From positions 310,001 through 374,000 of the forward strand of contig NZ_VCPD01000004.1 of NCBI RefSeq assembly GCF_005938215.1: 64,000 nt of DNA. The letters are read 5' to 3'. This DNA is from Ruegeria sediminis. GTDB lineage: Bacteria; Pseudomonadota; Alphaproteobacteria; Rhodobacterales; Rhodobacteraceae. Below, one piece after another: positions 53,731 through 64,000 of this stretch (its first letter is position 1; every line of letters starts with the position of its first letter). The position numbers and the translations under genes are program-made. The notes beneath the pieces are model-generated. The model was not told the origin of the DNA. It did not search any database and worked only from the letters and a program-made list of their open reading frames with translations.

Positions 53731-53795
53731 GCGCGTCGGGCCTAGGGCTCGGGGCTCCACCGGAATGATCGACGGGCCGCGCGCCCGTTTTTTTG
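53731..53795 (+). promoter_or_regulatory. Leader with terminator hairpin and alternative fold before rimP
   Basis: ACGGGC (53773-53778), CGCGC, GCCCGT (53784-53789) followed by a run of seven T including the stem's last base is an intrinsic terminator 13 bases before the rimP ATG, inside the presumed transcript. Upstream GGCGCG (53731-53736) and GGCC (53740-53743) can instead pair with CGCGCC (53781-53786) and GGCC (53776-53779), which would break the terminator. This looks like an attenuator; the operon encodes NusA, a termination factor. Pairings were found by eye. Confidence 0.55.
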
Positions 53796-53807
53796 TGCTT
53801 GGACAAC

Positions 53808-54398
53808 ATGACCAACGACCTGATAGCAAAGGCTGCCATCGACCGGCGACTGGCCGAGATCATCACCCCAGTGATCGAGGATCTGGGGTTCGAACTGGTC
53901 CGCATTCGCCTGATGAGCGGCAAGCACACCACCTTGCAGATCATGGCCGACAAGCCCGACGGCGGGATCGAGGTCGATGATTGCGCCGAGATCTCGAACG
54001 CGGTCAGCGCCACGCTGGATGTCGAGGACCCGATCCTGGACGCCTATACGCTCGAAGTGTCGAGCCCCGGCATCGACCGGCCCCTGACCCGGCTCAAGGA
54101 CTTCGAGATGTTCGAAGGCTACGAGGCCAAGCTGGAGACCTCGGAACTGATCGACGGGCGCCGCCGCTTCAAGGGCGAGCTGGCCGGGGTCGAAGGCGAC
54201 GAAGTTCTGGTTAACATTCCGCAAGGGAATGAGACGATCACCATCGGTCTGAAATTCGACTGGCTGAGCGACGCCAAGCTGGTCCTGACCGATGATCTGA
54301 TCAAGGAAATGCTGCGTCAGCGCAAGGCCGCGGGCGCCCTGAACGAAGACCAATTCGACGAGATCGTGACCGAAGGGTCCGAAGAGGAGACGAACTGA
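53808..54398 (+). CDS. rimP: Ribosome maturation factor RimP
   Basis: A 196-residue 30S-assembly factor. The N-terminal domain contains [18 protein letters not shown] near 18-35, and [20 protein letters not shown] followed by [14 protein letters not shown] is the RimP signature at the interdomain region. The C-terminal Sm-like domain follows ([18 protein letters not shown]). It is the first gene of the conserved rimP-nusA-ylxR-infB operon; its stop overlaps the nusA start (TGATG). The ATG at 53808 is preferred over an in-frame TTG at 53793 inside the terminator tail. Confidence 0.93.
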
Positions 54399-56017
54399 TG
54401 GCAATCACCTCTGCAAACCAGCTGGAGCTGTTGCAAACCGCCGAGGCCGTGGCCCGGGAAAAGATGATCGACCCCGGTCTGGTGGTCGCGGCGATGGAGG
54501 AATCCCTCGCCCGCGCCGCCAAGAGCCGCTACGGCGCCGAGATGGACATTCGCGTGTCGATCGACCGCAAGACCGGCAAGGCGACCTTCACCCGCGTGCG
54601 CACCGTGGTCGAGGATGAAGAGCTCGAGAACTACCAGGCCGAGATGACCGTCGAACAGGCCCGGCAGTACATGGAAAACCCGCAGGTGGGCGACACCTAT
54701 GTCGAGGAAGTGCCGCCGGTGGAAATGGGCCGCATCGCCGCCCAGTCGGCCAAGCAGGTGATCCTGCAGAAGGTGCGCGAGGCCGAACGGGATCGCCAAT
54801 ACGAGGAATTCAAGGACCGCGCCGGTACCATCATCAACGGCGTCGTCAAGCGCGAGGAATACGGCAACGTCATCGTCGATGTGGGCGCCGGCGAAGCGAT
54901 CCTGCGCCGCAACGAAAAGATCGGCCGCGAAAGCTATCGCCCCAACGACCGCATCCGCTGCTACATCAAGGACGTGCGCCGCGAGCCGCGCGGGCCGCAG
55001 ATCTTCCTGTCGCGCACCGCACCGGAATTCATGGCGGAACTGTTCAAGATGGAAGTTCCGGAAATCTACGACGGTATCATCGAGGTCAAGGCGGTGGCCC
55101 GCGACCCCGGTTCGCGCGCCAAGATCGCAGTGATCTCGTATGACAATTCCATCGACCCCGTCGGCGCCTGCGTCGGCATGCGCGGCAGCCGCGTGCAGGC
55201 CGTCGTGAACGAGCTGCAGGGCGAAAAGATCGACATCATCCCGTGGAACGAGGATCAGCCGACCTTCCTGGTGAACGCGCTGCAGCCGGCCGAGGTTTCC
55301 AAGGTGGTTCTGGACGAGGAAGCCGGCAAGATCGAAGTGGTGGTCCCGGAAGAACAGCTGTCGCTCGCCATCGGCCGCCGCGGTCAGAACGTGCGCCTGG
55401 CCAGCCAGCTGACCGGGCTGGACATCGACATCATGACCGAAGCCGAGGAATCGGCCCGCCGCCAGAAAGAGTTCGAGGCCCGCACCCAGCTGTTCATGGA
55501 CAGCCTGGACCTGGACGAGTTCTTCGCCCAGCTTCTGGTTTCGGAAGGCTTCACCAACCTTGAAGAAGTCGCCTATGTCGAGCTTGACGAGCTTCTGGTG
55601 ATCGACGGCGTCGATGAGGACACCGCCAACGAATTGCAGGCCCGCGCCCGCGACCACCTGGAAGCGCAGGCCAAGGCGGCGCTCGACAACGCCCGCGCAC
55701 TGGGCGCCGAGGACAGCCTCATTGAATTCGAGGGCCTGACACCCCAGATGGTGGAAGCACTCGCCAAGGACGACGTGAAGACGCTTGAGGATTTCGCCAC
55801 CTGCGCCGACTGGGAACTGGCCGGCGGCTGGACCACGGTCGATGGCCAGCGGGTCAAGGATGACGGCATTCTCGAACCTTTCGACGTGTCGCTCGAAGAA
55901 GCGCAGGATCTGGTGATGACCGCGCGGGTCATGTTGGGCTGGGTGGACCCGGCCGAATTGGAAGCGGCCGCGGAAGAGGTCGAAGACGAGGTCAGCGAAG
56001 AGGAGGCCGGGGCCTGA
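54398..56017 (+). CDS. nusA: Transcription termination/antitermination factor NusA
   Basis: A 539-residue RNA polymerase-binding factor. The N-terminal domain covers about 1-130, the S1 domain about 135-200 ([18 protein letters not shown]), KH1 and KH2 about 205-345 ([20 protein letters not shown] and [18 protein letters not shown]). Two C-terminal helix-hairpin repeats follow ([16 protein letters not shown] and [20 protein letters not shown]) and then an acidic tail. All domains appear intact. It controls pausing, intrinsic termination and rRNA antitermination, and may act on the leader of its own operon. Confidence 0.96.
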
Positions 56018-56042
56018 TCCCGGGCCCCTGCGGGTGGCGCAG

Positions 56043-56666
56043 ATGGGTCGCGGCGGCGTCTCGAAGGATCGTTCGGATGGACCCGAGCGGAAATGCATCG
56101 CCACGGGCGAGGTTCGGCCTAAATATGGCTTGATCCGCTTCGTGGCGGGGCCGGACGGCCAGGTCTGCCCCGACATAACGGGCAAGCTGCCCGGACGCGG
56201 GGTTTACGTGGCCGCCGACCAAGGCGCATTGCACCGCGCGATCAGCAAGAAACTGTTCGCGCGGGGCCTCAAGATGCCGGTGACGGTGCCCGAAGGCTTG
56301 GCGGCCGAAGTCGAACGGCAATTGTCCCGGCGCGTGGTGGAACTCATCAGCCTCGCGCGGAAATCGGGCGATGCGGTCGCGGGATACGAAAAGGTCAAGA
56401 CCTGGCTCGACAAGGAAGAGGCCCAGATCCTGATCCAGGCGGCGGATGGCTCGGGGCGCGGCAAGTCCAAGCTGAGCACGCCGCATTTCGGGAAATACAT
56501 CGGCTGGCTGACGGCGGATGAATTGGGCATGGCGTTTGGACGCCAAACAGTGATACATGCGGCGCTGGCCTCTGGTGGACTCGCCAAACGTGTTGTAGAG
56601 GAAGCGCAGCGCCTGCGTGGCTTGCGCGAAACGGATGACGGCGGCAAGGGCCGCTCGGAAGGGTAA
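56043..56666 (+). CDS. YlxR-family RNA-binding protein with L7Ae-like tail
   Basis: A 207-residue protein. The N-terminal YlxR/DUF448 domain has [19 protein letters not shown] and [15 protein letters not shown] second domain of about 100 residues ([20 protein letters not shown]) resembles ribosomal L7Ae/L30e folds. The two are usually separate genes (ylxR, ylxQ) in Firmicutes; the fusion is normal in Rhodobacterales. It likely binds RNA or RNase P/ribosome partners. I chose MGRGGVS (ATG at 56043); a GTG at 56034 is the alternative. It ends eight bases before infB. Confidence 0.88.
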
Positions 56667-56674
56667 GAAGCTTT

Positions 56675-59170
56675 ATGAGCGATAGTGACGGCAAAAAGAC
56701 ATTGGGTCTGCGTGGCGGGGCACGCCCCGGGAATGTGAAACAGAGTTTCAGCCACGGACGGACCAAGAATGTCGTGGTGGAAACGAAACGCAAGCGCGTG
56801 GTCGTCCCCAAGCCGGGAGCGGCCAAGCCGAGCAGCAGCGGTTCCGCGCCGGCGGGCGATCCCTCGCGCCGTCCCGCCGGGATCTCCGATGCGGAAATGG
56901 AACGCCGCCTGAAGGCGCTGCAAGCCGCCAAGGCGCGCGAATCCGAAGAGGCCGCGCAGCGCGAGGCCGAGGAAAAGGCCCGCGCCGAAGAGCGGGAGCG
57001 CCGCCGCGCCGAACAGGAGGCGAAGGAACGCGAACAGCGCGAGGCCGAGGAGAAGGCCCGCCAGAAGGCCGAGGAAGAGGAGCGCCAGCGTCAGGAGGCC
57101 GAAGTGGCCGCCAAACGAGCCGCCGCCGAGGCCGCCGCCGCGAAAGAGGCGCCCAAGGCCAAGGCCCCGGTACCCGGCAAACCGCCTGCTTCCGAAGAAG
57201 AACAGCGCCGCGGCGCCGAGCGTGAGCGCGAACAGCGCCCTGCCCGCACCAAGGGACGCGACGATGGCCGCCGGTCCGGCAAGCTGACCCTGAACCAGGC
57301 GCTTTCGGGCGGCGAAGGTGGGCGTCAGCGGTCGATGGCCTCGATGAAGCGCAAGCAGGAACGCGCCCGCCAGAAGGCGATGGGCGGACCGGTCGAGCGC
57401 GAAAAGGTGATCCGCGACGTGCAGCTGCCCGAAGCCATCATGGTTTCCGAACTCGCGAACCGCATGGCCGAACGCGTTTCCGACGTGGTCAAGGAACTCA
57501 TGAAAATGGGCATGATGGTCACGCAGAACCAGACCATCGACGCCGATACCGCCGAACTGATCATCCAGGAATTCGGCCACAATGTGGTCCGCGTCTCGGA
57601 TGCCGACGTCGAGGACGTGATCAAGGAGGTCGAAGACAAGGAAGCTGACCTGCTGCCGCGCCCGCCGGTGATCACCATCATGGGCCACGTGGACCACGGC
57701 AAGACATCGCTGCTGGACGCGATCCGCGACACCAAGGTCGTTTCGGGCGAGGCCGGCGGCATCACCCAGCATATCGGCGCCTACCAGGTCGAGACCAATG
57801 ACGGCGTCACGCTGACCTTCCTCGACACGCCGGGCCACGCCGCCTTCACCTCGATGCGCTCGCGCGGCGCGCAGGTGACGGATATCGTGGTTCTGGTCGT
57901 CGCCGCGGACGACGCGGTGATGCCGCAGACGGTCGAAGCAATCAACCACGCCAAGGCCGCCAAGGTTCCGATGATCGTGGCGATCAACAAGATCGACAAG
58001 CCCGAGGCGAACCCGACCAAGGTGCGCACCGACCTGCTGCAGCACGAAGTCGTCGTCGAAGCGATGTCGGGCGAGGTGCAGGACGTCGAGGTTTCGGCCA
58101 AGACCGGCCAGGGTCTGGACGATCTGCTCGAGGCCATTGCGCTGCAGGCCGAGATCCTGGAACTCAAGGCCAACCCGAACCGCGCGGCCCAAGGCGCGGT
58201 GATCGAGGCGCAGCTTGACGTGGGCCGCGGCCCCGTGGCCACGGTTCTGATTCAGAAGGGCACGCTGCGCCAGGGCGACATCTTCGTCGTGGGCGAGCAG
58301 TACGGCAAGGTCCGCGCTCTGATCAACGACAAGGGCGAGCGTGTGCAGGAAGCCGGACCTTCGGTCCCGGTCGAGGTTCTTGGCCTCAACGGCACGCCCG
58401 AGGCCGGGGATGTCCTGAACGTGACCGAAACCGAAGCGCAGGCCCGCGAGATTGCGGAATACCGCGCCCAGGTCTCCAAGGACAAGCGCGCCGCGGCTGG
58501 TGCCGCGACCACGCTGGAACAACTCATGGCCAAGGCCAAGGAAGACGAGAACGTCTCGGAACTTCCGATTCTGGTGAAGGCGGATGTGCAGGGCTCGGCC
58601 GAGGCCATCGTTCAGGCGATGGAAAAGATCGGCAACGAGGAAGTGCGCGTGCGCGTGCTGCATTCCGGCGTCGGCGCGATCACCGAGACCGATATTGGCC
58701 TGGCCGAAGCGTCGGGCGCGCCCGTCTTCGGGTTCAACGTCCGCGCCAACGCCTCGGCCCGAAACACCGCCAACCAGAAAGGCGTCGAGATACGCTACTA
58801 TTCGGTGATCTACGATCTGGTGGACGACGTGAAAGCCGCCGCATCGGGCCTGCTCAGCGCCGAGATCCGCGAAAAGTTCATCGGCTATGCCGAGATCAAG
58901 GAAGTCTTCAAGGTTTCCGGCGTCGGCAAGGTCGCTGGTTGTCTGGTCACCGAAGGGGTCGCCCGCCGCTCGGCCGGTGTGCGCCTGCTGCGCGACAACG
59001 TGGTGATCCACGAAGGCACGCTGAAGACGCTCAAACGCTTCAAGGACGAAGTGAGCGAAGTCCAGTCGGGCCAGGAATGCGGCATGGCCTTCGAGAATTA
59101 CGATGACATTCGCGCCGGCGACGTGATCGAGATTTTCGAACGCGAAGAAGTGACGCGGACCCTCGCCTGA
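56675..59170 (+). CDS. infB: Translation initiation factor IF-2
   Basis: An 831-residue GTPase that delivers initiator tRNA. A long charged N-terminus with Glu/Arg/Ala heptads (about 70-200, coiled coil) precedes the IF2N-type region. The G domain starts near 330: G1 GHVDHGKTS near 336, G2 [12 protein letters not shown]3 DTPGH, G4 NKID near 439. Beta-barrel domain II, domain III and the C-terminal tRNA-binding domain ([20 protein letters not shown]) follow. The length is normal. Transcription ends at the hairpin 59196-59223. Confidence 0.96.
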
Positions 59171-59228: not shown

Positions 59229-59253
59229 AAAAGGGGATGGCAGAGCCATCCCC
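59229..59253 (-). terminator. Intrinsic terminator of the 44-codon minus-strand gene
   Basis: Read on the minus strand, GGGGATGGC, TCT, GCCATCCCC is a perfect 9-base stem followed by TTTT. It lies 33 bases after the stop of the small gene at 59286-59420 and is separate from the infB terminator. Confidence 0.8.
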
Positions 59254-59609: not shown

Positions 59610-61961
59610 TCAACGTGACCGGGCGTGCCGGCCCGGCGCGGCCTTGCGCTGCAGTTCCTGCATCTTCTCGCGGGTCTTCTCGGTCTCGCGAAACGCTTGC
59701 ATCGCACCGCTGAGGTATTGACGGGGCCATGCGGCGTCGTTTCGAACGCCGTACCAGGCGGCGGCCTGATGGGTGAAATAGGGGTTCCACAGGTGCGGGC
59801 GGCCGATGGCCACAAGATCGGCGCGGCGGGTATGCAGGATGGTGTTGATCTGCGCCGGCTCGGTGATGGCGCCGACCGCCATGGTGGCGATCCTCGGCAC
59901 GTTGCGGACGGCTTCGGCCAGGTGGGTCTGGAACATGCGGCCATAGACCGGCTCCTGATCCGGCACGGTCTGGCCGGCCGAGACGTCGATCAGGTCGCAG
60001 CCTGCGTCGCGGAACGCTTCGGCAATGCCGATCAGCTCGGCCTCGGTCAGACCGCCGTCCTTCCAGTCGGTGCCCGAGACCCGCACCGACATCGGCCGCT
60101 CGGCGGGCCAGGCGGCGCGCATCGCGGAAAACACCTCGAGCGGATACCGCAGGCGGTTCTCCAGGCTGCCGCCATAGTCGTCACCGCGCAGGTTGGTCAG
60201 GGGCGACAGGAACGAGGCCAGCAGGTAGCCATGGGCGCAGTGCAGTTCCAGCATGTCGAACCCTGCGCGGGCGGCGCGTTCGGTCGCCTGCACGAAATCG
60301 GCTCTGATACGGTCCATTCCGGCCCGGTCAAGCTCGGCCGGGATCTGGCTCTCGTCCTCGAACCACGGCAGCGGCGAGGCCGAGACCAGCGGCCAGTTCG
60401 CCCCGGCTTCGGCGATCGGGTGGTTCTCTCTCTCCCAACCCAACTGGGTCGAGCCCTTGCGCCCGGCATGGCCGAGCTGCATGGCGAATTTGGCCGCCGA
60501 ATGGGTATGGACGAAATCGACGATTTCCTTCCAACGCCTCTCATGCTCGTCCGTCCACATGCCGGTACAGCCTTCGGAGATGCGGGCGTCCGCGGACGGG
60601 CAGGTCATCTCGGTATAGATCAACCCCATGCCACCGGTCGCATGGCTGCAGTAGTGCACCTTGTGCCATTCGGTCGGGTTGCCCTGCCTGTCCGCCGAAT
60701 ATTGCGCCATGGGCGACATGACCACACGGTTGGCAAGCTCCATATCTCGCAAGCTGAACCGCGAGAACATCGGCGTGGGGCGCGATTTCCGCAGATCCTC
60801 GCCGGTTTCGCGCAGGTGGCGGGCATACCACTCGTCATCCGCCTTCCGCACGAACTCAGGGTCGCGGATGATCAGGTTGTCGTAGGTGATCGATTTCGCC
60901 CGGCACATCACGACCATGGCGAATTGATAGGGTTCCATGTCCCAGGACCGGTTCATGTGTTCGAACCAGGCCAGGGAAACGTCGGCATTGTGCTGGATGA
61001 TCTGGCAGGGCGTGCGGCGGGCGTCGTCGTAGGCCCGGAAGGCCGTCTGCACGTCGGTTTCTGCATGGTCTAACAAGGCATCCGACAGGGCAATCGCACA
61101 TTCCATCGCCAGCTTGGTGCCCGAGCCGATCGAGAAATGCGCGCTCGCCTTGGCGTCGCCCATAATGACGATATTGTCCACGAACCAGTTCTCGCAGAAT
61201 ATCCGCGGAAAGTTGCGCCAGTTCGACCGGTTCAGCAGCAGCGGGTGGCCCTGCAGTTCCTCGGCAAAGATCGCTTCCAGCTTGGCTTTCGAGCCTTCCT
61301 CGTCGAATTCCTCGAACCCGTGCCCGGCCCAGGTGGCCTCGTCCATTTCGAAGACCCAGGTCGAGTGATCCTTTTCATACTGGTAGCAATGGGCCACCAT
61401 CTGTCCATGCTCGGTCTCGCGGAAGAAATAGTTGAACTCTCCCATCGGGCGGGTCGAGCCCATCCAGCAGAACCGGTTGCTGCGCCAGGTGGTCGAGGGC
61501 CTGAACGCGTCCTTGTACTGCGTGCGTATCGCCGAGTTGATGCCGTCGCTCGCGACGATGACATCCGAATCCGGGAATTGCGTCTTCAGATTGGCGGCGT
61601 CGATCTCGGCGCCGAAGGTCAATTCGACCCCAAGCTCCGCGCAACGTTCCTGCAGGATCCGCAGCAGCGTGTGCCGCGACGTGCCGCAGAACCCGTTCCC
61701 GGCACAGCGCATCTCGTGGCCCTTGAAGTGAACGGCGACGTCGTCCCAATAGGCCATCTCGTCCTTCAATCGCTCGAAGACCGGTTTGTCCCGGCTCAGG
61801 AACTCATCCAGCGTTTCGTCCGAAAAGACCACGCCGAACCCGAACGTGTCATCGGCGCGGTTGCGCTCGAACACCTCCACATCCCAGTCCGGTCGCGCCT
61901 TTTTCGTCAGAAGCGCCGTGTAGAGACCGCCTGGCCCACCGCCGATCACCGTGATCTTCAT
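59610..61961 (-). CDS. Fused FAD monooxygenase / old-yellow-enzyme (2-aminobenzoyl-CoA monooxygenase/reductase type)
   Basis: A 783-residue two-domain flavoprotein. Residues 1-395 are a salicylate-hydroxylase-like FAD monooxygenase: [19 protein letters not shown] at 3-21 and [19 protein letters not shown] near 270-288. Residues 400-765 are an old-yellow-enzyme barrel: [50 protein letters not shown]. This exact fusion is known from 2-aminobenzoyl-CoA monooxygenase/reductase, which dearomatises anthraniloyl-CoA, and is often annotated salicylyl-CoA 5-hydroxylase. Neighbouring tryptophan dioxygenase and kynurenine formamidase genes favour the anthranilate role. GGAG precedes the ATG. A 132-base gap separates it from the upstream hydrolase gene. 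Confidence 0.85.
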
Positions 61962-62093
61962 CTTCGTTCTCCGCCTGAGTCCGACGCGCTCGTACCCTGC
62001 GCCTTACCATGTTTCGCCATTTGATTTAAGTATGAAATGTTTAGACATATAGAAACTGTTGGCATTTCACACCTCCGCTTACCGCCGGTCGCC
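61962..62093. other. Gap upstream of the fused monooxygenase/reductase gene
   Basis: A 132-base spacer, A+T-rich at 62020-62060, contains a short dyad ATGT-CTAA-ACAT on the minus strand. It may hold a promoter or operator for the fused flavoprotein gene, but no confident -35/-10 pair was found. Confidence 0.3.
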
Positions 62094-62921
62094 TCAGCCC
62101 AACGGTGTCCGAAACGTCCCGGCATGCAGGATGATGTCGAAGTGATTCACCCCTTGCTGCAGATCGAAACTGACCGAATGCCCGGCCTTGCGCAGCCGTT
62201 CCGCATAGTCGCGGCTCTGGCGGATGAACTCTCCGGTGTCGCGCCCGCCCGCCGTGACGCGGTATTGCGGGCCGGTGGGCGGAAGGTGGTGGATCGGAGA
62301 AAGGTCTTCGATTTCCTGCTGCGTCAGTTGCAACGGGTCGTTGACCGGCACCAGCGAAATCGGCTCCAGATCGAATACGCCGCTGATCAGGGTCACATCA
62401 CTCACCTGCAACCCGGCCCCGGCCAAGTCCGACCCTGCCGTCGCCATCACCATCGCCGCCAAATGGCCGCCCGCGCTGTGCCCGGACAGCGACACCCTCG
62501 CCGGGTCAAACCCCATCGTCCCGGCCTGTGACCCCAGCCACATCAGCGCGTCGCGGCATTCGACCACCATTTCGCCAAGCCGGGCGTTGGGCGCGATCGT
62601 GTAGTTCAAGGTGGCAAAGGCATGGCCGCCCTCGACCAGCGCCGGCGCCATCATTGCCGACTCCCGCTGGCTCAGCGCTTGCCAGTAGCCGCCATGGATG
62701 AACACATGCAGCGGCGCGTCTGGTTCCCGGCCCGGGAAGTAGTCCAGCACATGCGTCGGCCCGTTCCCGTAGCTCAGGTTCTCCTGCACCTGCAGGTCCG
62801 TGCGCACCTTGGCGCTGAGCGCCGCATAGGCCGCAAGATAGGGAGAGTTGTCGCCCCCAACCATGGAACTGGGCGAATATTCCCGCGCCAGCTCGTCGGA
62901 GGAAAAGCCGCGATACAACAC
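62094..62921 (-). CDS. Kynurenine formamidase-like alpha/beta hydrolase
   Basis: A 275-residue alpha/beta hydrolase of the animal-type (AFMID-like) formamidase group. FIHGGYWQAL near 73-82 supplies the oxyanion HGGYW motif, GHSAGGHLAAM near 147-157 the nucleophile Ser, and the C-terminal QGVNHFDII the catalytic His. It would hydrolyse N-formylkynurenine to kynurenine and formate. It starts three bases after the tryptophan dioxygenase stop. It is unrelated to the metal-dependent KynB cyclase-fold formamidase. Confidence 0.86.
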   Translation of the reverse strand: MLYRGFSSDELAREYSPSSMVGGDNSPYLAAYAALSAKVRTDLQVQENLSYGNGPTHVLDYFPGREPDAPLHVFIHGGYWQALSQRESAMMAPALVEGGHAFATLNYTIAPNARLGEMVVECRDALMWLGSQAGTMGFDPARVSLSGHSAGGHLAAMVMATAGSDLAGAGLQVSDVTLISGVFDLEPISLVPVNDPLQLTQQEIEDLSPIHHLPPTGPQYRVTAGGRDTGEFIRQSRDYAERLRKAGHSVSFDLQQGVNHFDIILHAGTFRTPLG

Positions 62922-62924
62922 GTC

Positions 62925-63812
62925 TCAGGCCCCCTGATTGTACATGAGTTCGGTCCGCATGTCGTAAAGATCGTGGAAGAATTTGAGCTCCAGCGCCTTT
63001 TTCAGGAAGGCTACCCCGCTGGACCCGCCGGTGCCCGGCTGCATCCCGATCACCCGCTCCACGGCCGTCGCATGGTCGAAGCGCCAGCGCTGGAACAGCG
63101 ACTCCACATCCATCAGCTTTTCCGCCAGCGCGTAGAGATCCCAGTACTTGTCGGTGTCGCGGAAGATCTCGACCCAGATCTTCACCACCCGCGGATCGCC
63201 GGAATAAGGCTGCGAGTAGTCCCGGTCCAGCAAGTCCTGCGGCACGTCAAACCCTTGGCGCGCCAGCATGTGCAGAACCTCGTCGTAGAGCGACGGCTTG
63301 GTGAGCGCCGCGTTCAGCATTTCCATCACTTCGGGGTCGTGCGCGTGTACCTTCAGGGTCGAAGTGTCCTTGTTGCCGAGGATGAACTCGATCTGGCGAT
63401 AGCCGTAGCTCTGGAAACCCGACGAGTTCCCCAGAGCATGGCGGAACGTAAGGTAATCCGCCGGCGTCATGGTCAGCAGTGTGTCCCAGGCCGAGATCAG
63501 CTGCCGTTGGATCGCCTTGATCCGGTCGAGGTTCTTCATCGCCGGGCCGAAGTCATCCATCTGCAGGAACCGCCGCACCTCGACCAGCTGGTGATGCATC
63601 AGCTTGAGCCACAGCTCGCTGACCTGATGGATGATGATGAACAGCATTTCGTCCGGCTGCGCCGGGTCCTGAAAGGTCTTCTGCAGGTTCAACAACGTCT
63701 TGAGCTGCAGGAAATCGCCATAGCTCTTGCGGTGCTTGTCCGCGAAATCGGTGACGAGCGTGTCTTCGACGCCGCGCTTCACAAGCCGGTCCCGTTTGTC
63801 CTGTTCAGCCAT
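62925..63812 (-). CDS. kynA: Tryptophan 2,3-dioxygenase
   Basis: A 295-residue heme dioxygenase converting L-tryptophan to N-formylkynurenine. FIIIHQVSELWLKLMHHQL near 52-70 contains the distal His region, LTFRHALGNSSGFQSYGYR near 115-133 the substrate-binding block, and GTGGSSGVAFLKKAL near 261-275 the C-terminal heme-pocket loop. GGAG precedes the ATG. It lies downstream of a RidA-family gene (43-base gap) and upstream of the formamidase gene, forming one catabolic operon. Confidence 0.95.
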   Translation of the reverse strand: MAEQDKRDRLVKRGVEDTLVTDFADKHRKSYGDFLQLKTLLNLQKTFQDPAQPDEMLFIIIHQVSELWLKLMHHQLVEVRRFLQMDDFGPAMKNLDRIKAIQRQLISAWDTLLTMTPADYLTFRHALGNSSGFQSYGYRQIEFILGNKDTSTLKVHAHDPEVMEMLNAALTKPSLYDEVLHMLARQGFDVPQDLLDRDYSQPYSGDPRVVKIWVEIFRDTDKYWDLYALAEKLMDVESLFQRWRFDHATAVERVIGMQPGTGGSSGVAFLKKALELKFFHDLYDMRTELMYNQGA

Positions 63813-63855
63813 CTTGGTTCTCCAGAATGCGGGAATACCCGCTATTTCACCTGAA

Positions 63856-64000
63856 TTAGAGCCGTTTTTCGAGTTTGGCAGTCGCTTCGATCTCGACCAG
63901 CGCCTCGTCCTCGACCAGCCCGGCGACGACGACCATCGTCATGGCGGGAAAGTGCCGCCCCATGATCTTGCGATAGGTCTCGCCCACTTCCCTCTGGCGG
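63856..64000 (-). CDS. RidA-family protein, partial (N-terminus beyond window)
   Basis: Only the last 47 codons are inside the window. The frame reads ETYRKIMGRHFPAMTMVVV and AGLVEDEALVEIEATA, which is the C-terminal core of the RidA/YjgF family, where the Pro-Ala-Met-Thr strand and the final VEIEA strand line the active site. RidA proteins hydrolyse reactive enamines and imines to ketones; some act as 2-aminomuconate deaminase. It is upstream of and on the same strand as kynA, so it probably belongs to the same operon. The conserved Arg (usually xxRxxVE) appears as the Phe-Pro-Ala context only, because the relevant segment is at the cut. Confidence 0.75.
   Translation of the reverse strand, partial: RQREVGETYRKIMGRHFPAMTMVVVAGLVEDEALVEIEATAKLEKRL

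Follow-up and report, generated by a model that had tools for sequence, protein, structure and literature searches.

We analysed a 64,000-nucleotide stretch of the Ruegeria sediminis genome (contig NZ_VCPD01000004.1, positions 310,001 to 374,000; in our numbering G000:C13:310001-374000 of a 4.2 Mb genome), hereafter "the window", whose end carries part of a minus-strand operon. This operon probably degrades tryptophan via anthraniloyl-coenzyme A (CoA), with a small protein of the Rid superfamily, in which methionine replaces the catalytic arginine of RidA ("Met-type Rid"), acting as deaminase of the CoA-bound enamine made by a fused flavin adenine dinucleotide (FAD) monooxygenase/old yellow enzyme ("the fusion"). 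A wider proposal is that Met-type Rids are a dedicated subfamily deaminating a CoA-bound ring enamine, where the thioester makes the arginine dispensable, and that they fill the ammonia-releasing step in bacteria and, via more distant Rids, in haloarchaea; this we put forward tentatively, leaning very slightly against its holding in full. The first-pass annotation of the window had suggested, from chemistry and gene order, that the Rid could deaminate the fusion product. The tie between the two genes has proved far tighter than gene order implied, but the arginine-based enamine chemistry is not transferable as written. Statements cited below to PubMed Central (PMC) papers refer to the passages of those papers that treat the point in question.

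Operon layout

The four minus-strand genes that had been lined up as RidA, tryptophan dioxygenase, formamidase and fusion are indeed arranged in this way, and the Rid gene runs past the window end. In an extended read of 20 kb (L002, C13:364000-383999), they form the 3′ part of a 14-gene operon that likewise reaches beyond the window. In order of transcription, the operon begins with a MarR regulator, a crotonase, an acyl-CoA dehydrogenase, an aroyl-CoA ligase and five genes of a Liv-type ATP-binding cassette (ABC) transporter, whose names are our own reading of the open reading frames (ORFs), and it continues with a 4HBT-like thioesterase, the Rid, tryptophan 2,3-dioxygenase, an alpha/beta hydrolase and the fusion. 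Spacing is operon-like, 11 of the 13 intergenic gaps measuring -11 to 51 bases with start codons partly set by eye; the two wider gaps lie between the ligase and the transporter's binding protein (172 bases) and between the hydrolase and the fusion (132 bases).

The Met-type Rid protein

The Rid gene occupies 63856-64260 on the minus strand in extended coordinates (L002:9857-10261), of which 63856-64000 falls in the window; these last 145 bases of the gene include the key residue, Met107, whose codon at 63940-63942 was placed from the sequence and its alignment. The protein matches PF01042 with 72.3 bits (cut-off 27.3), scores 54 bits against the RidA-type NCBIfam model TIGR00004 (cut-off 106) and 44 bits against the RutC equivalog (cut-off 169), and searches of Pfam and NCBIfam did not place it in any of the published subfamilies Rid1-7. 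The earlier label "RidA" thus holds at the level of the PF01042 superfamily and fails below it, the protein falling under the TIGR00004 cut-off and lacking the RidA arginine. Aligned with E. coli RidA, Arg105 is replaced by Met107 and Asn88 by Gly93, while Glu120 is kept as Glu and Tyr17 as Tyr/Phe. Canonical RidA identity is excluded, since the arginine and Asn88 are both gone.

In alignment A1, which comprises 21 cluster-linked Rids including that of the window, Met107, Gly93, Trp36, Trp77 and Glu123 are invariant; two of the 23 extracted sequences had been dropped, L053 being cut by a contig end and L061 lying within a long open frame. We defined the Met-type group by a score of at least 150 bits to the A1 profile plus Met107, Gly93, Trp36 and Trp77, and the window Rid, at 212-215 bits, belongs to it. 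Across 166 group Rids, collected with a threshold of 150 bits (lowered to 140 for the named set) from sets in which a few genomes may be counted more than once, the arginine position holds Met in 163, one Thr and two Ile making up the rest, while Gly is found in 164 and both Glu and Tyr/Phe in all 166. Scores in the genome search were strongly gapped, with the group at about 150-217 bits, a small set at 105-128 and everything else at 82 and below. E. coli RidA scores 58 bits and stands outside the group in a Rid tree that, for so short a protein, is weakly resolved (15 of 45 inner branches well supported). By sequence, the Met-type Rids are a distinct arginine-less group of Rid proteins. The predicted model of a relative with 76% identity (single chain, predicted local distance difference test score 95.9) has the Rid fold, and Foldseek returned RutC as its top match (TM-score 0.80-0.85), with YabJ and RidA structures matched as well. 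Canonical RidA is a homotrimer with its active site between subunits. Related Rids with scores of 110-155 bits, in which the arginine site is occupied by Ile or Met, were also seen in stretches without a fusion match (L158, L159, L162-L165).

Co-occurrence of the Rid and the fusion

The tie between the two genes is seen in their distribution over genomes. With cut-offs of at least 1000 bits for a full fusion and at least 150 bits for the Rid, 289 alphaproteobacterial genomes gave 51 with the fusion, 53 with the Rid and 46 with both (Fisher p 5e-40, a value that ignores relatedness). A sample of 398 Pseudomonadota genomes, which has 8 fusion-bearing genomes in common with the former, gave 71 with the fusion and 69 with the Rid; all 69 carried both and none the Rid alone (Fisher p 9e-76, again ignoring relatedness). 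The counts of both samples were copied by hand from result tables into scripts. In the larger sample the genes are spread over 46 (fusion) and 44 (Rid) of 213 genera. Of the genomes sampled from the window's own family, 12 carry the two genes together, and the 15 that lack the fusion also lack the Rid.

Several exceptions in the alphaproteobacterial sample concern incomplete or fragmented sequences. Among its five fusion-only genomes, G277 holds a Rid cut by a contig end next to the fusion, completeness is 86% for G025 and 70% for G226, and G224 is in 450 contigs; among its seven Rid-only genomes, G007 and G196 hold pieces of a fusion. The others are weighed below.

Scanning public genomes with A1 gave at least 80 Rid loci, many from Rhodobacterales and others from Rhizobiales, Thalassospira, Halomonadaceae and Saccharospirillum. 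Among the 80 listed, flanks of up to 10 kb contain the ligase in 53, the crotonase in 46, the fusion in 32, tryptophan dioxygenase in 23 and kynureninase in 16. For the 48 loci with no fusion in view, a whole-genome search that covered 41 of them found a fusion in every one (39 above the family cut-off, 2 at 981-997 bits), sometimes just past the flank and sometimes far off, as in G154, where the two genes are 1.8 Mb apart. A chance gene neighbourhood could be ruled out by these counts and by the recurrence of the same gene set in dozens of loci.

Two side observations come from the same loci. Rid stretches with a distant fusion (L131, L132, L134, L136, L138, L139, L144) often hold an acyl-CoA dehydrogenase 25-39% identical to that of the operon, which in L131 and L132 resembles glutaryl-CoA dehydrogenase, judged by the protein start alone. 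A short cupin of ~150 amino acids also recurs in the clusters (L251:8721-9173, SPO_RS21870; L293, L294, L297, L299, L302).

Gentisate-linked fusion copies as a contrast

Seven fetched fusion loci carry gentisate 1,2-dioxygenase and a fumarylacetoacetate hydrolase (FAH) family hydrolase (L258, L259, L263, L264, L275, L286 and L303; L263 and L264 being two strains of one species), and none of the seven has a Met-type Rid. L263 and L264 hold a different Rid, with Asn at the arginine site and 70 bits. The first-pass annotation had named gentisate neighbours as a sign against anthraniloyl-CoA; there are none in the 20 kb around the operon, and they were seen only beside these other fusion copies. 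Similarly, G601 and G649, the two fusion-only genomes of the 398, have the fusion beside gentisate dioxygenase and the FAH hydrolase, and G533 possesses one copy of each kind, its Rid lying 10.7 kb from the anthranilate-type copy. In the loci seen, the presence of a Met-type Rid or of gentisate dioxygenase tells the two kinds of fusion apart. In the fusion tree, from which L260, having no fusion, was left out, the gentisate copies carried on plasmids occupy two distinct positions; the substrate of the fusion therefore appears to have shifted more than once.

Clusters outside Proteobacteria

Plasmid clusters of Arthrobacter (pAL1), Rhodococcus and Streptantibioticus contain the ligase, the fusion, a Met-bearing Rid, a cupin and a thioesterase, with an FAH hydrolase in the first two and no FAH match in Streptantibioticus. 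In none of these three clusters was there a match to the operon-type crotonase or acyl-CoA dehydrogenase; in Rhodococcus, a different kind of acyl-CoA dehydrogenase is annotated some 4 kb away from the fusion. In a search of plasmids with the Arthrobacter Rid, the best 25 of 416 records included fusion plasmids of all three genera; separate plasmid lists for the fusion and the Rid ran to 94 and 85 records. In three of four actinobacterial clusters the ligase, fusion and Rid are all preserved even though the genes for ring opening vary, and this gene content makes a role for the Rid at a step near that of the fusion most likely.

In Deinococcus psychrotolerans, a single row of genes comprises the fusion, a short-chain dehydrogenase/reductase (SDR), MarR, crotonase, acyl-CoA dehydrogenase, ligase and Rid. 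Two haloarchaeal plasmids (L256, Haladaptatus; L266, Halomicrococcus) carry the fusion, a Rid, acyl-CoA dehydrogenase, MaoC, SDR and crotonase; one of them has the ligase, kynureninase and an indoleamine 2,3-dioxygenase as well, the last of these being found in Haladaptatus. A trpB-like gene lies beside both haloarchaeal clusters.

The fusion and its substrate

The fusion gene (59610-61961, minus strand) encodes a single chain of 783 amino acids, with FAD_binding_3 at residues 2-317 and Oxidored_FMN at 398-733, and is proposed to be a 2-aminobenzoyl-CoA monooxygenase/reductase, an enzyme with a size of about 87 kDa. It aligns end-to-end with NF006101 at 1012 bits, below the curated cut-off of 1078. 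This family, named by NCBI "bifunctional salicylyl-CoA 5-hydroxylase/oxidoreductase", covers both substrates and does not tell them apart. The window fusion is 45.8% identical to that of Arthrobacter plasmid pAL1, which adjoins a ligase gene. The operon's own aroyl-CoA ligase is of the benzoate-CoA ligase family (371 bits against 375) and is 54% identical to the pAL1 ligase, which by its position is the gene with demonstrated anthranilate-CoA ligase activity (matched to PMC3534580). Because of this kinship, the tryptophan dioxygenase in the operon, the kynureninase in the genome and the lack of any L002 match to gentisate dioxygenase or to the FAH hydrolase that goes with it, anthraniloyl-CoA rather than salicylyl-CoA is a well-supported prediction for the substrate. 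The corresponding Azoarcus enzyme yields 2-amino-5-oxocyclohex-1-enecarbonyl-CoA, which has an enamine beta to the thioester (review PMC4539516).

The salicylyl-CoA name is also borne by Rid-bearing, anthranilate-type copies (L250, L251, L253-L255, L261, L262), including those of Ruegeria pomeroyi DSS-3 and Arthrobacter pAL1, and on these it looks like a misannotation. We noted as well that Sulfitobacter sp. F26204 (G298) carries the full-length fusion in triplicate, with 1280 bits for one copy and 983-988 bits for the other two, and that isolated fusion copies (e.g. L070, L080, L085), for which ORF lists alone were inspected, showed no common neighbours.

From tryptophan to anthranilate

Tryptophan 2,3-dioxygenase (62925-63812, minus strand) covers positions 3-264 of the 264 in TIGR03036 at 358.9 bits, under the cut-off of 390.7, and lies above the cut-off of PF03301, of which it is the sole match in the genome. 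The alpha/beta hydrolase next to it (62094-62921, minus strand) gave only generic alpha/beta-hydrolase and esterase/lipase matches (Abhydrolase_3, BD-FAE). Its earlier label "formamidase" accordingly draws on context and not on the family searches, and from its place beside the dioxygenase it is likely a kynurenine formamidase.

Extension past position 64000 brought the aroyl-CoA ligase, crotonase and acyl-CoA dehydrogenase into the operon, and kynureninase was found elsewhere, on contig C12 (TIGR01814, 285 bits, cut-off 246, in the genome search). There it forms a two-gene minus-strand pair (G000:C12:500375-502369; L097:9325-11439) with an SDR; no other protein of the genome better matches (41% identity) the SDR whose gene comes after the fusion in clusters such as that of Ruegeria pomeroyi. 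No SDR match was found within the 20 kb operon stretch, and the pair on C12 is apparently the part of the pathway missing from the operon. With both tryptophan dioxygenase and kynureninase present, the genome has the kynurenine route from tryptophan, and the earlier reading of the locus as anthraniloyl-CoA degradation is well supported by operon and genome content together. Anthranilate 1,2-dioxygenase was discarded as the anthranilate route of this genome, its two TIGR03228 matches being weak (87 and 64 bits, where the cut-off is 672).

The crotonase of the operon matches NCBIfam PRK08258 at 481 bits (cut-off 330). In the alignment it is without both glutamates of PaaF, which we take to be the catalytic residues of that hydratase, and, like PaaG, carries an Asp close to the second of these sites; such residues would be more in keeping with an isomerase or hydrolase than with a hydratase.

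Proposed pathway and alternative explanations

In the pathway that we propose, tryptophan dioxygenase, the alpha/beta hydrolase and the unlinked kynureninase would produce anthranilate, the ligase would convert it to anthraniloyl-CoA, and the fusion would hydroxylate and reduce this to 2-amino-5-oxocyclohex-1-enecarbonyl-CoA. The Met-type Rid would then hydrolyse the C-N bond of the beta-enamino thioester, or of its SDR-reduced form, giving ammonia and a 2-oxo (beta-keto) CoA ester. Provided that the 5-oxo group is intact, the deaminated product would be C7H8O4 as the acid; in fact, a C7H8O4 CoA ester, tentatively a cyclohexanedione-carboxyl-CoA according to the authors, was reported from anthranilate-grown Arthrobacter Rue61a (PMC3534580). 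A crotonase without the hydratase glutamates could open the ring of the beta-keto thioester by hydrolysis, after which acyl-CoA dehydrogenase and beta-oxidation would follow. In the Rid itself, Arg105 (now Met) and Asn88 (now Gly) would be dispensable and Tyr/Phe and Glu retained; the two replacements are of the kind to be expected if the enzyme deaminates a thioester. The arginine would not be needed because a CoA thioester has no carboxylate to hold; in RidA crystal structures, the arginine is bound to a carboxylate (PMC4433059). That a Rid protein can act on such a group is illustrated by RutC, which deaminates the beta-enamine 3-aminoacrylate (PMC8113886). Gene content, co-occurrence and the residue pattern are what our analysis shows directly; the first two CoA steps come from the literature, and we infer that the Rid is the deaminase, what the crotonase does and in which order the last steps proceed. 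Since the arginine is missing and deamination needs the argument from a thioester without carboxylate, we continue to infer this step and do not take it as settled.

A number of observations weigh against the proposed deaminase. The arginine is described as the determinant of Rid deaminase activity, its absence marking inactive Rids (PMC5619798, PMC8113886), and the R104A variant of RutC is dead (PMC8113886). Salmonella RidA was hardly affected when its Tyr and Glu were mutated (PMC4433059), so their conservation here lends weak support. Moreover, below pH 5 the enamine ester is not stable, and in acid it can hydrolyse unaided (PMC3534580); possibly, therefore, no enzyme is needed. As regards distribution, G231 has a fusion without Rid, unexplained in a genome that is 100% complete, albeit in 460 contigs and with a stop within the fusion match, and five genomes (G011, G067, G095, G125, G187) have the Rid without a fusion-length match. 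The Rids of the actinobacterial and haloarchaeal clusters are only distantly related (87-115 bits), the residue at the arginine site is Val or Leu in the two haloarchaeal ones, and a Halostagnicola fusion locus has no Rid in 19.6 kb. In Streptomyces sp. BHT-5-2 (L265, NZ_CP081497 1725000-1753000), the fusion and ligase are accompanied by relatives of the crotonase (44%) and acyl-CoA dehydrogenase (47%), and there is no Rid match in the 28 kb read; this reverse pattern has slightly lowered our confidence in the Rid as deaminase. Finally, the crotonase is nearly as tied to the fusion as the Rid is (67 of the 398 genomes, all within the 69 with a Rid), and it is likewise missing from G601 and G649. 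In the gentisate control all the downstream genes are lost as a set, so that it does not single out the Rid.

The instability of the enamine below pH 5 also agrees with the idea that the Rid is a helper, quenching an enamine that leaks or is unstable, or else a by-product such as 5-hydroxyanthraniloyl-CoA, with flux independent of it. RutC behaves in this way, accelerating a reaction that water also performs and being dispensable for growth on uridine (PMC8113886), and the Streptomyces locus, with its other genes and no Rid in the stretch read, would suit a dispensable part. Yet the near-perfect co-occurrence (69 of the 71 fusion genomes among the 398) and the presence of the Rid in clusters of several phyla speak against an accessory, and we consider the helper role unlikely. 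Perhaps the crotonase itself releases the ammonia, by adding water to C1=C2 next to the thioester, and the Rid performs another step. Both the exclusiveness of the crotonase to fusion genomes and the Streptomyces locus, where a crotonase relative stands without a Rid, point in that direction; nonetheless, we find this improbable, as the window crotonase lacks the two PaaF glutamates, three actinobacterial clusters have the Rid and no match to the operon crotonase, and no obvious enzyme would then be left for ring hydrolysis.

Two further explanations separate the Rid from the fusion product altogether. Like canonical RidA, for which such a role is known (PMC4433059), it may shield pyridoxal-phosphate enzymes, for instance the kynureninase that accompanies it in some clusters, from stray imines or 2-aminoacrylate. 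The arginine required for that activity is missing, however, kynureninase lies in the flank of only 16 of the 80 listed Rid loci, and neither it nor tryptophan dioxygenase is annotated in the 24 kb read of the Paracoccus denitrificans PD1222 cluster, which makes this protection very improbable. Equally little credence is given by us to a fusion acting on salicylyl-CoA, as the NCBI family name says, beside a Rid unrelated to its product. Gentisate-linked copies do exist, but they come without Met-type Rid, and in the window the tryptophan dioxygenase and aroyl-CoA ligase of the operon, the kynureninase of the genome and the 20 kb free of gentisate dioxygenase speak for anthraniloyl-CoA. Deamination of the CoA-bound enamine by the Met-type Rid thus remains the explanation that we favour.

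What is already known is the start of the pathway and the occurrence of Rid proteins in aromatic pathways. Among open-licence PMC papers, we found none joining RidA with anthraniloyl-CoA or 2-aminobenzoyl-CoA, a search in which other Rid names were not paired. Tryptophan degradation via the anthraniloyl-CoA monooxygenase/reductase was omitted from a 2022 pathway curation "due to a lack of knowledge" (PMC9007349), and the arginine-less Rid subfamilies, predicted non-deaminases, "remain mysterious" (PMC4433059, PMC5619798). If our proposal is true, one specific substrate would answer both questions, that of the tryptophan route and that of the arginine-less Rids, and the arginine rule would be limited as a predictor of activity. 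For annotation, the presence of a Rid or of gentisate dioxygenase may help to separate anthranilate-type from salicylyl-type fusion copies, as it does in the loci seen.

Other features of the window

A terminator-like hairpin of 9 pairs, 7 of them G-C, lies 3′ of the fusion at the operon end (59233-59253, minus strand), as a consensus match only; overall, terminator-like sites in the window are not above shuffles (10 against a mean of 11.4). Plus-strand ORFs at 53793-59170 converge with the operon and are read, from the ORFs alone, as rimP, nusA, ylxR and infB.

Comparison with known systems

The canonical RidA/TdcF of E. coli shares with the window Rid the PF01042 domain, Tyr/Phe17 and Glu120, and differs from it at Arg105 and Asn88. 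RutC resembles it in the Rid fold and in a substrate that is also a beta-enamine next to a carbonyl, but it keeps the needed Arg104, which is Met in the window Rid, and its substrate 3-aminoacrylate is a free acid (PMC8113886). AmnE, the 2-aminomuconate deaminase of Pseudomonas sp. AP-3, is likewise a Rid-superfamily deaminase in aromatic degradation; its substrate, however, is a ring-opened dicarboxylate, and Arg117 is among its conserved pocket residues (PMC6742747). A search of the genome for 3-hydroxyanthranilate dioxygenase gave no PF06052 match, control genomes giving none either, and identity with 2-aminomuconate deaminase was set aside on this search, which drew blank in the controls too. 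COG251 genes have also been predicted in benzoate regulons (PMC6449761). The salicylyl-CoA 5-hydroxylase/gentisate clusters share the fusion family, and often its name, with the window operon, yet differ in having gentisate 1,2-dioxygenase and FAH and no Met-type Rid (0 of 7).

The closest likeness is to the 2-aminobenzoyl-CoA pathway of Azoarcus evansii and Arthrobacter sp. Rue61a, which employs a CoA ligase and a monooxygenase/reductase fusion, as here. On Arthrobacter pAL1, a Rid gene, the ligase gene and the fusion lie within 7 kb, although in the available portions of the Rue61a pathway paper (PMC3534580) no Rid is named and the terms endoribonuclease and L-PSP gave no hit. The Arthrobacter cluster differs from the window operon in its FAH hydrolase, cupin and thioesterase and in having no match to the crotonase and acyl-CoA dehydrogenase. 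The window operon, in turn, differs from both known pathways in being joined to tryptophan dioxygenase and a Liv-type transporter.

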